In this document: positions 176 through 37,546 of the stretch, piece after piece | Layout of the letters: each line of letters starts with the position of its first letter | How positions within the stretch are numbered: position 1 is the stretch's first letter | Assembly: GCA_035498035.1 (NCBI GenBank) | Contig: DATKAN010000058.1 | Coordinates: 1 to 64,000, forward strand | DNA: 64,000 nt | Source of the DNA: Nitrospiria bacterium | GTDB lineage: Bacteria; Nitrospirota; Nitrospiria; JACQBZ01 | Reading direction: 5' to 3' | The notes under the pieces: generated by a model | Told to the model about the DNA's origin: nothing | What the model saw: only the letters and a program-made list of their open reading frames with translations | Databases searched by the model: none | Program-made: the position numbers and the translations under genes

Positions 176-796
176 CTAGGTTGAATGATTCGCGGACCGG
201 CGGGGGGCTTGATCCCGGTTCACCACCCAGGTCCCGCTTTTTTCCAACATTCGCAGTAGCTGCACGGCGTTGTGGACCTTGAGCTTGGAGTAAATGTTGG
301 CCCGGTGGGTTTCGACCGTTTTGATGCTGATCGAAAGGCGCGCGGAGATCTGGCGATTGTTGGACCCCTGTGCGATCAGGCGGGTGATCTCATGCTCCCG
401 TTTTGTCAGCCGATCCGTTCCGTGGACCGAGTCGGCGCTCTTTGGCTCGTCCGCGGTCTCCGGAAATTCCCGGTCGCTCGTCAAATCGAAGGCGCGGGGG
501 TTCTTAAAGCGGCTTAAAGGGGTTGAAAGATGGATTCCGTGCGCCGTCAATCCATCCCATTCCCGCTTCCAGAGCACCCGTCCATGAAAATGCTCGATCG
601 CGACCGCTTCGGAGGGACGGCTCAGTTCAAGTTCGAGGATGACCTCCGCGTCCAGCGGAAGGGAGGTCTTCGAATAGAAGCAGAGGCCTTGGCGGCTGAT
701 GTTCGCCGTGTAGATGACCCCGCTTTCGGCCGACAAAAGCGTCGCGGCTTTTCCCCGGCTGGTCAACGGAATGCGTATCAGCGACCGTTTCTCCAT
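176..796 (-). CDS. PilZ-LuxR fusion transcriptional regulator
   Basis: A 206-residue protein with two domains. Residues about 4-100 are a PilZ domain: an RxxxR motif (R4-S-L-I-R8) and an NxSxxG motif (NISRQG) are both present, which are the two cyclic di-GMP contact motifs. Residues about 128-190 are a LuxR/FixJ-type helix-turn-helix (LTKREHEITRLIAQG, then ISIKTVETHRANIYSKL). A response-regulator receiver domain is absent. Known: PilZ domains bind c-di-GMP and LuxR C-termini bind DNA. Inferred: a one-component c-di-GMP-responsive transcription factor. It is divergent from the 6S RNA promoter to its right and convergent with the macro-domain gene. Targets are unknown; the pilus genes in this window are one candidate. 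Confidence 0.8.
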   Translation of the reverse strand: MEKRSLIRIPLTSRGKAATLLSAESGVIYTANISRQGLCFYSKTSLPLDAEVILELELSRPSEAVAIEHFHGRVLWKREWDGLTAHGIHLSTPLSRFKNPRAFDLTSDREFPETADEPKSADSVHGTDRLTKREHEITRLIAQGSNNRQISARLSISIKTVETHRANIYSKLKVHNAVQLLRMLEKSGTWVVNRDQAPRRSANHST

Positions 797-888
797 ACTA
801 TTTTAAAAGCTAACCCACTTTCTCGAATTGTCAAGCCTGCCGGATCGGCGGATCCGGAGAGTTCCGGGCGGCCGAACGGATTTTTCGC

Positions 889-917
889 TTGAATTCTTTT
901 TTGGGGTTTGTTATAGT
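889..917 (+). promoter_or_regulatory. Sigma70-type promoter for 6S RNA
   Basis: TTGAAT (889-894) and TATAGT (912-917) are separated by 17 bases, a good housekeeping-type promoter. The predicted start near 924 gives a transcript with about 35 extra bases before the closing stem of the 6S RNA, so a processed leader is possible. Confidence 0.65.
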
Positions 918-954
918 GCCAAGCGTAACGTTTTGAGTTTTACAAGGGCTGAAC

Positions 955-1142
955 ACGTCGCCCCTGCGTTGTTGGTGAGGGGTGAGAAATTTTGACCCAA
1001 CGCCTTGTCTTTGGGAGCCATGCCCTGGGAATGGTGTGCACGCCCCATCGTAACGAGGGGAAGCCTGAAATTCCCATCACGGCGCCCACCTGGAAAACCG
1101 GGTTCAAGACATTCCGCTCTGCCACGGCAATCGCGGGGGCCT
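955..1142 (+). ncRNA. ssrS: 6S RNA
   Basis: 6S RNA mimics an open promoter and sequesters sigma70 RNA polymerase. Segments 960-974 and 1123-1140 form a long closing helix (GCCCCTGCG with CGCGGGGGC, continued by TTGTTG with CGGCAA), with one bulge. The 3' half has the typical order of words: a CCCC..GGGG hairpin, GAAGCCTGAAA, then CACCTGGAAAACCGGGTTCAAG, which resembles the corresponding part of the E. coli RNA (GAGAAGCCTTAAAA, CACCTTGAACCAAGGGTTCAAG). Length of about 185 nt is typical. It has its own promoter, and it lies upstream of rny, as 6S genes do in several bacterial groups. Exact ends are estimated. Confidence 0.82.
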
Positions 1143-30232: not shown

Positions 30233-31048
30233 ATGCTGAAGATCGCCGGCATCCAGATGCGATGCTCCAAGGACCCCGACTCTAATCTCCGAAAAGCCAT
30301 CGAGATGATCGCCCTGGCCGCGGAACGGGGGGCCGGAATCATCTCCACACAACAGCTTTTCAACCTGCCCTGGTTTGCCTTCGAGAGCCGGGAGGATCAT
30401 TTTCGGTGGGCCGAGCCCATCGACGGGCCGACCGTTTCAGCCCTTCGGGCGGAAGCCCGGAAACACGCCGTGGTGTTGATCGGAACTTTTTTCGAAAAAG
30501 ACGGGGATGCCCACTACAACACGTCGGCCGTGATCGAGAAAGACGGGACCTTGGTCGGCCGTTACCGAAAGGTGCATCTTCCCCAGATCCCGTTGTGGGA
30601 GGAGAAGTATTATTTCAAGGCGGGGGATCTCGGATTCCCGGTCTTTGAAACCTCCCTAGCGCGGATCGGCATTCAGATCTGCTGGGACAATTTTTTCCCG
30701 GAGGGCAGCCGGATCATGGCCCTGCAGGGCGCGCAGATCCTCTTCGCCCCCACGGCGGCCGCCTTCGCTTCCCAGTCCCGCTGGGAGAAGATGATCTGCG
30801 CCAACGCCATCGCGAACAACGTCTTCATTCTTCGGATCAACCGCGCCGGCCAGGAGGAACGGCAAACGTTCTACGGTCGGAGTTTCTGCGTCAATCCCTT
30901 CGGAGAACTGATCGCCTCGCCCGCCGGGGAAAACGACGCCGTCGTGTTTTCGGAAGTTAACCTGAACGAGGTTCAGGAAACGCGAGACATCTGGACCTTT
31001 TTCCGGGACCGTCGGCCCGAACTCTACGGGGAACTCGCACAACCATGA
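30233..31048 (+). CDS. Carbon-nitrogen hydrolase (nitrilase superfamily), Glu replaced
   Basis: A 271-residue protein close to N-carbamoylputrescine amidases. Superfamily catalytic residues are Glu, Lys and Cys. Lys113 (RKVHLPQ) and Cys150 (GIQICWDNFFPEG) are present, but the Glu of the usual LQELF segment is Gln41 (STQQLFNLPWF; codons CAA CAG). The rest is well conserved, including WEEKYYF and TFYGRSF. It may be inactive, or it may use another residue, or act as a binding protein. It follows secA by 10 bases and overlaps the next gene by 4 bases. Confidence 0.82.
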   Translation: MLKIAGIQMRCSKDPDSNLRKAIEMIALAAERGAGIISTQQLFNLPWFAFESREDHFRWAEPIDGPTVSALRAEARKHAVVLIGTFFEKDGDAHYNTSAVIEKDGTLVGRYRKVHLPQIPLWEEKYYFKAGDLGFPVFETSLARIGIQICWDNFFPEGSRIMALQGAQILFAPTAAAFASQSRWEKMICANAIANNVFILRINRAGQEERQTFYGRSFCVNPFGELIASPAGENDAVVFSEVNLNEVQETRDIWTFFRDRRPELYGELAQP

Positions 31049-32148
31049 AGACGCTGGACCTTCTCAATCGTTACCGGACCGAGAACGGCCGTCTGCGCAG
31101 CGCCCTCGCCCAACGCTCCAAGGAACTGTCCTTCTTCATCAACAGCGGGAAGGCCCTGACCTCCACGTTGGAATTCAACAAGATCCTCCGGGTCATCATG
31201 GAAAGGGCGCAGCGGCTGATCAAGTGCGACGCCTGGTCGTTGCTGCTCTTGGATGAGGAGGTTCAGGAGCTCCGTTTTGTCGCGGCCAAGGGGACCAAGG
31301 GCGTCAACAAGGTTCGCTTAAAAGTGGGCCAGGGCATCGCCGGTTGGGTCGCCAAGACCGGCCAGCCCTTGATCATCCGGGATATCCGGAAGGACCGGCG
31401 CTTCAGCCGTGCCGCGGACCGCATCACCCGGTTCAAGACCCGCTCCGTTCTGTGCGTGCCGATCGTCAACAAAAAGCGGACGATCGGCGTCCTGGAAATG
31501 ATCAACAAACAGAACCGAAAACCCTTCGATGAAACCGACCAGGATCTCCTCCGGAAACTCGTGGATCAGGCCGCGATCGCGCTGGAGCGGGCCAGCCTCT
31601 ATGAGCGCATGTCGAATCTGGCGATCACGGACGACCTGACCAAGCTTTATAATTTCCGTTACCTGGACCAAATCCTCGACCGCGAAATCAATCGCTGCCG
31701 GCGCTACGGGTCCATTCTCTCGCTCATCTTTTTCGACATGGACTACTTCAAACACGTGAACGATGTCCATGGGCATCTCATGGGCAGCAAGGTCCTGGTG
31801 GAGGTGGCGCGTATCCTGGTTGAAAACCTCAGGGACGTGGACATCATCTCGCGCTACGGCGGCGACGAATTCGTCGTGGTCCTTCCGGAAACCGATGTCG
31901 AGACGGCCGCCCGGATCACCCACCGCTTGCACAAAAGCCTGAAGGCTCACGAGTTCTTGAAGGACGAAGGATTGCAGATCAATATGTCGGCCAGCTTCGG
32001 GATCGCGGGGTATCCGGAGCATGCGATGACGAAGCGGGATCTTGTCCGGATGGCCGACCAGGCGATGTATCTGGCCAAGAACAGCGGGCGCGACCAGGTT
32101 TGCATCGCCGAGAAGCGCGCCGCGCGGACCCGGGCCCGCGCCCACTAA
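31045..32148 (+). CDS. GAF-GGDEF diguanylate cyclase
   Basis: A 367-residue cytoplasmic signalling protein: N-terminal coiled coil (about 1-35), GAF sensor domain (about 36-185, CDAWSLLLLDEEVQEL through ALERA), and a C-terminal GGDEF domain. The active site is intact (RYGGDEF, G272-F276), and the product-inhibition I-site RxxD (R263-D-V-D266) lies five residues before it. Known: such proteins make c-di-GMP with feedback inhibition. It overlaps the nitrilase-like gene by 4 bases. The GAF ligand is unknown. Possible effectors in this window are the two PilZ proteins and PilB. Confidence 0.92.
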   Translation: MKTLDLLNRYRTENGRLRSALAQRSKELSFFINSGKALTSTLEFNKILRVIMERAQRLIKCDAWSLLLLDEEVQELRFVAAKGTKGVNKVRLKVGQGIAGWVAKTGQPLIIRDIRKDRRFSRAADRITRFKTRSVLCVPIVNKKRTIGVLEMINKQNRKPFDETDQDLLRKLVDQAAIALERASLYERMSNLAITDDLTKLYNFRYLDQILDREINRCRRYGSILSLIFFDMDYFKHVNDVHGHLMGSKVLVEVARILVENLRDVDIISRYGGDEFVVVLPETDVETAARITHRLHKSLKAHEFLKDEGLQINMSASFGIAGYPEHAMTKRDLVRMADQAMYLAKNSGRDQVCIAEKRAARTRARAH

Positions 32149-37150: not shown

Positions 37151-37546
37151 ATGGCGACGGACGAGAACCAAAATAACCCGGAAAACCAGGAGGCCAGGGA
37201 GACGCCTAAAAAGGCCGCGGACAAGCGCAAATATTTGCGTTACCCCATAATCATTCTCAAGGTGACCAGCGGGGGGCAAAAGCAGCATTTGTTCGGATAC
37301 GCAAAGAACATCAGCCGCGGGGGACTTTTTATTCAATCGGTCAATCCCCGCGAGCCCGGGGAGCGCTTCATCATCTCCTTCCATATTCCCGATACCGAGA
37401 TTCAGGTCCGTTGCAAGTGCGAGGTGGTCTGGATGCGAAAATACCATCCCAAGGATAAATTGGAGCCCGGTTACGGCATCCGCTTTCTCGACCTGCCGCC
37501 GGGCGCGGGAAATGCGATCGAAGACTGGATCAAGAAGCGGCTCTGA
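37151..37546 (+). CDS. PilZ-domain protein
   Basis: A 131-residue protein made of a polar N-terminus (about 1-24) and one PilZ domain. The c-di-GMP motifs are RxxxR (RKYLR, about 26-30) and NxSxxG (NISRGG). The strands that follow are also typical (VRCKCEVVWMRK, PGYGIRFLDLPP). It resembles the group found in gliding/pilus systems (TIGR02266). No output domain; it probably acts through a partner protein after ligand binding. It follows midA by 27 bases. Confidence 0.87.
   Translation: MATDENQNNPENQEARETPKKAADKRKYLRYPIIILKVTSGGQKQHLFGYAKNISRGGLFIQSVNPREPGERFIISFHIPDTEIQVRCKCEVVWMRKYHPKDKLEPGYGIRFLDLPPGAGNAIEDWIKKRL

Follow-up and report, generated by a model that had tools for sequence, protein, structure and literature searches.

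A PilZ–LuxR fusion protein from a Nitrospirota family, predicted to be a c-di-GMP-responsive transcription factor and preceded in relatives by a c-di-GMP-I riboswitch

A gene near the start of the window, the 64,000-nucleotide stretch of a Nitrospiria genome analyzed here, encodes a protein of 206 amino acids in which an N-terminal PilZ domain is joined to a C-terminal LuxR/NarL-type helix-turn-helix (HTH). Our data point to a one-component c-di-GMP-responsive transcription factor that was ancestrally also under the control of a riboswitch, predicted to be an OFF switch; we assign this reading a probability of about 0.7. The larger finding is that a single gene appears to sense one messenger at two levels, RNA and protein, and that its relatives preserve stages in the loss of this double sensing. 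As the window species has deleted the riboswitch, this RNA layer is visible only through its relatives and not from the window DNA alone.

Domain organization and fold of the PilZ–LuxR protein

The coding sequence (176-796, minus strand, stop codon included) reads from an ATG at 796 down to 176, and its assignment draws on the open reading frame, Pfam matches and orthologues. The reading frame is closed by a stop a few codons 5' of M1, so that M1 is the only start that keeps the RxxxR motif; five orthologues begin at the same aligned position. The PilZ domain comprises residues 1-107 (476-796, minus strand) and the HTH residues 126-188 (233-421, minus strand); both were assigned from Pfam, AlphaFold and Foldseek, the former also from hhalign. 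Between them, residues 108-125 (422-475, minus strand) form a flexible linker, recognized by low pLDDT and relaxed dN/dS. The protein carries both motifs of the c-di-GMP-binding PilZ type, RxxxR and (D/N)xSxxG, as R4SLIR8 (773-787, minus strand) and N32ISRQG37 (686-703, minus strand), and the residues R4, R8, N32, S34 and G37 do not vary across six orthologues. The GerE profile (PF00196, the LuxR HTH) matches residues 129-183 with an E-value of 5e-20 over profile positions 2-56 of 57, scoring 71.3 bits against a cut-off of 23.5; the HTH is complete, with all four helices. No receiver (REC) domain was found by Pfam, AlphaFold or Foldseek, residues 1-107 being PilZ; with no N-terminal REC, the protein is not a two-component response regulator. 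The first-pass annotation had described a fusion of PilZ and a LuxR-type HTH with both c-di-GMP motifs intact, a complete HTH and no receiver domain, and this anatomy is borne out by the profile comparisons, the modelled fold and the orthologues.

The PilZ match (PF07238) of the window protein, at 17.6 bits, falls below the Pfam cut-off of 22.5, and those of two orthologues, at 25.3 and 26.0 bits, lie above it. Comparison of the N domain by hhalign with a set of stand-alone PilZ proteins gave a probability of 99.2% (E 9e-20), and the N-domain profile matches stand-alone PilZ proteins from other Nitrospirota families with E-values of 1e-13 to 1e-7. The nearest stand-alone PilZ proteins also keep the R, R, S and G of the signature. 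A chance PilZ match was considered and rejected on the strength of motif invariance, the N-domain profile matches, hhalign and Foldseek.

An AlphaFold model built with 25 aligned rows has a mean pLDDT of 87, compared with just 47 when only the six close orthologues were aligned. It places barrel strands at residues 14-90, a helix at 100-107 and the HTH helices at 126-187, and leaves the linker disordered (pLDDT below 50 at 114-122). When searched against the PDB with Foldseek, the N domain matches the c-di-GMP-bound PilZ structure 4xrn (TM 0.77 by target length) and also the c-di-GMP-bound PilZ domains of Alg44 (4rt1), BcsA (4p00), YcgR (5y6g) and VCA0042 (3kyg); the C domain superimposes on the DNA-binding domains of VraR and LiaR with an rmsd of about 0.8-1.0 Å. 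A structural model lacking a PilZ barrel had been named beforehand as a result that would speak against the first-pass annotation; the barrel is present, at the confidence and similarity given above, and the profile comparison and AlphaFold model together settle the predicted fold of the N domain as PilZ. The PilZ domain has a dN/dS of about 0.2 or lower and the HTH one of about 0.04-0.16, compared with roughly 0.35-1.8 in the linker: selection is purifying on the two domains, and the linker is nearly free and fast-evolving.

Genomic context and distribution of the fusion

Our family sample consists of seven genomes, all seemingly metagenome-assembled, and the fusion gene is present in six of them; the window protein shares 63-73% identity with its five orthologues. 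Within the stretches available, the orthologous loci retain the gene order small gene / PilZ–LuxR / 6S RNA / rny / ymdB / xseA / ispA / dxs. On the 3' side of the fusion the window holds the end of a convergent short gene which, by our reading, resembles a macro-domain protein. The fusion promoter (TTGACA-N16-TAGCTT; 807-834, minus strand) is conserved in position with the orthologues in the alignment. Its -10 is weaker in the window (TAGCTT versus TATACT) and too divergent for a consensus scan, in which the promoters of the orthologous loci L063 and L064 score 11/12. The same scan detects a divergent 6S RNA promoter (TTGAAT-N17-TATAGT; 889-917, plus strand), conserved in L063 and L064, and the 6S RNA itself (RF00013; 958-1143, plus strand) occupies the same position in all orthologous loci. 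Inspection by eye of the aligned intergenic region between PilZ–LuxR and 6S revealed no conserved operator, only the two promoters being conserved. Across the orthologous loci the 6S promoter is strongly conserved and the intergenic core towards the fusion promoter is not (window 889-957).

No PilZ–LuxR fusion was found outside this family in the sampled Nitrospirota (270 genomes for the class and 396 for the phylum); the phylum was searched separately with the N-domain profile and with the full-protein profile, and the loci examined from the class and phylum searches encode only GerE-only, response-regulator or stand-alone PilZ proteins. Beyond Nitrospirota the search covered close relatives only, by peptide patterns in genome contigs and by tblastn in plasmids, and the plasmids gave only weak matches, with no more than about 32% identity, to proteins annotated as response regulators or HTH regulators. 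Among the genomes sampled, the fusion was found only in one Nitrospirota family, and we found no description of a PilZ–LuxR or PilZ–HTH fusion in the open-access literature. Very short proteins of about 78-130 amino acids, with little beyond a LuxR-type HTH, are common in Nitrospirota (L051-L057). Beyond the family, some of the strongest HTH matches to the fusion are proteins of this kind, and they are possible donors.

The messenger should be available to the protein: the six genomes that keep the gene have 17-29 GGDEF matches each, and there are 19 PilZ matches in the window genome. The window itself encodes a GAF-GGDEF diguanylate cyclase (31045-32148, plus strand) and a stand-alone PilZ protein (37151-37546, plus strand), and a further PilZ match lies just beyond it at C58:64716-65000.

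A c-di-GMP-I riboswitch in the leaders of three orthologues

In three orthologous loci a c-di-GMP-I riboswitch (RF01051) lies between the TTGACA promoter and the ATG of the fusion, with Rfam scores of 37.9 bits in L062 (genome G003), 44.6 in L063 (G004) and 45.8 in L064 (G005) against a gathering score of 35. The ligand-discriminating position 11 is G, the c-di-GMP type, in all three aptamers, and each aptamer is followed on its 3' side by a terminator hairpin and a T run (-16.6, -23.0 and -27.8 kcal/mol, in the same order). Between aptamer and terminator the three leaders share an alternative helix, (G/A)CC-GAA-GUGGUG ... GCCAC-G(A/U)A-GGU, with a folding energy of -14.6 to -15.8 kcal/mol and z-scores of -2.8 (L062), -1.2 (L063, weak at -1.16) and -2.1 (L064). 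The 5' strand of this candidate antiterminator includes the 3' strand of the aptamer closing helix P1, and its 3' end overlaps the opening bases of the 5' arm of the terminator. Because the candidate antiterminator shares bases with P1 and overlaps the terminator, c-di-GMP should favor termination, and the riboswitch is predicted to be an OFF switch. In these three orthologues the mRNA and its protein product should thus both read c-di-GMP; we found no report of a c-di-GMP riboswitch preceding a PilZ regulator in the open-access literature.

Most other RF01051 riboswitches of the family have A, not G, at the ligand-discriminating position (CAGAGCAAACC), which we take to be equivalent to G20A. 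These include all five that are left in the window genome (L067, L073, L078, L081 and L084) and, in relatives, L068, L069, L072, L074, L075, L076, L077, L080, L083, L085 and L087. The substitution suggests that the A-type members may be 3',3'-cGAMP riboswitches. Several of them precede genes with CxxCH haem motifs or genes for predicted outer-surface proteins, a context that is reminiscent of Geobacter.

Decay and loss of the riboswitch

The leaders of L060 and L061, from the same genus as the window, give no riboswitch match in Rfam even at E 10. A lineage-specific covariance model (R1) built from the intact aptamers nevertheless detects relics in both, at 45.9 bits (E 6e-11) in L060 and 32 bits (E 5e-7) in L061. 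Both relics have broken pairs; that of L061 is full-length but degenerate, and that of L060 additionally lacks the terminator. A short repeat, ATAATTATG / ATAATATGG, is found at the deletion edges in L060 and is consistent with a slippage deletion.

The -35-to-ATG distance is 38 nt in the window, compared with 158-287 nt in the orthologues, which have about 120-250 nt extra between the -10 and the ATG; the site of the deleted leader is 797-806 (minus strand). We considered a riboswitch hidden in this leader and rejected it, as neither Rfam (RF01051, up to E 10) nor the lineage model R1 gives a match there. As judged from these leaders, the riboswitch has decayed in the genus of the window and is deleted in the window species. 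With the leader deleted and the ATG lying 10 nt after the -10 hexamer, the window mRNA is probably leaderless, and expression of the fusion would probably be constitutive.

The seventh genome of the family (G006, locus L092), a streamlined one of 1.7 Mb that is 96% complete, lacks the fusion, and a gene that we read as proC lies directly upstream of 6S. No c-di-GMP-I riboswitch was found anywhere in this genome, nor did the lineage model R1 give a match. It has 5 GGDEF matches, against 17-29 per genome in the six that keep the fusion. This single case fits a history in which the entire circuit disappeared together with c-di-GMP signalling.

Discussion

LuxR/NarL-type HTH domains are normally dimeric DNA binders. 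We propose that c-di-GMP binds the N-terminal PilZ barrel via RxxxR and NxSxxG, that the ligand-bound PilZ domain would alter the disposition or dimerization of the C-terminal HTH, and hence its engagement of promoters, and that this would set the transcription of target genes. In the ancestor of the family the c-di-GMP-I aptamer of the leader would have controlled an intrinsic terminator, the messenger being read both by the mRNA and by the protein that it encodes; if the aptamer is OFF at high c-di-GMP, synthesis of the factor would be self-limiting. Relatives with an intact riboswitch would still limit synthesis of the factor additionally through RNA. The riboswitch being deleted in the window species, regulation in that species should depend only on the protein. 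The full scenario, in which one gene senses c-di-GMP twice, through an OFF riboswitch and through PilZ, in a self-limiting circuit whose RNA layer decays or is deleted within the family until, in the window species, the mRNA is probably leaderless and the protein is the only sensor, strikes us as an evenly balanced proposition.

PilZ domains with intact motifs usually work via protein contacts, and some bind no ligand. The PilZ part of the fusion may be a mere protein-docking or dimerization module, the HTH binding DNA under the regulation of a partner instead of c-di-GMP; the sub-threshold Pfam score in the window protein would suit this, and PilZ itself and other xPilZ domains are non-binding scaffolds (PMC10333796). 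We nonetheless consider such a role unlikely, given that six orthologues all keep the five signature residues, with R, R, S and G kept in the nearest stand-alone proteins, that the best Foldseek PilZ matches include c-di-GMP-bound structures, and that relatives place the fusion gene under a c-di-GMP riboswitch. It could also be argued that the pairing of riboswitch and PilZ is an ordinary one and that the protein works like any other LuxR-type regulator, lacking special feedback, since genes for c-di-GMP signalling, and also some transcription regulators, are often found behind c-di-GMP-I riboswitches (PMC7266159; norR, PMC11124144). That account leaves the intact ligand motifs in a DNA-binding protein unexplained, and the pairing of a riboswitch with a PilZ regulator appears in no open-access report that we found; we regard this account as rather unlikely.

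The sign of the switch is a prediction. Both signs occur among c-di-GMP riboswitches (PMC6366702) and minimum-energy folding alone leaves the kinetics unsettled, so that an ON switch, with c-di-GMP promoting read-through and positive feed-forward in place of self-limitation, retains an appreciable minority of our confidence; against it, the conserved antiterminator and P1 draw on the same bases, and ligand should therefore remove the antiterminator. It is very unlikely, in our judgement, that the missing leader of the window is an error in a metagenome-assembled genome and that the real organism retains the riboswitch. The deletion site is 0.8 kb from the contig end, and the repeat at the L060 deletion edges could in principle collapse in assembly, but at about 8 bp it is too short for this, and decay in the genus is stepwise, from the degenerate full-length element of L061 through L060 without its terminator to the window without everything.

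We therefore favor a c-di-GMP-responsive transcription factor that has lost its riboswitch in the window species. A c-di-GMP-to-DNA switch made of a PilZ sensor and one of the commonest bacterial HTH types would be simple and portable, worth understanding and of use as a biosensor. The intact, decayed and deleted riboswitches form a natural comparison series for asking why one messenger is read at both the RNA and the protein level, and what follows when one sensing layer is lost.

The only PilZ transcription factor named in the reviews consulted is MrkH of Klebsiella pneumoniae (e.g. PMC12564702), a c-di-GMP-dependent activator that binds its promoter strongly only with c-di-GMP and has no obvious HTH (PMC3161979); a 2025 review calls its DNA-binding domain novel (PMC12564702). 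Like MrkH, the window protein is predicted to combine a c-di-GMP site in a PilZ domain with direct activation of transcription. It is not of the MrkH type, however: MrkH has a novel N-terminal DNA-binding part and a C-terminal PilZ domain, whereas in the fusion a canonical LuxR/NarL HTH follows an N-terminal PilZ domain. VpsT of Vibrio cholerae, a c-di-GMP-responsive regulator of the LuxR/CsgD type, shares the C-terminal LuxR-type HTH and is among the Foldseek matches (3kln), but its N-terminal domain is receiver-like, in contrast to the PilZ barrel of the window protein. In E. coli PdeL, too, a LuxR-type HTH is joined with a domain that binds c-di-GMP (PMC12564702), although this is an EAL enzyme C-terminal to the HTH, and the N-terminal PilZ domain is predicted to be a pure sensor. 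At the RNA level the orthologous leaders resemble other RF01051 (GEMM-I) elements in their aptamers above the gathering score, the G at the discriminating site and the terminator platform; they differ in that the regulated gene is itself predicted to encode a c-di-GMP-sensing transcription factor, and in that the element is deleted in the window species.
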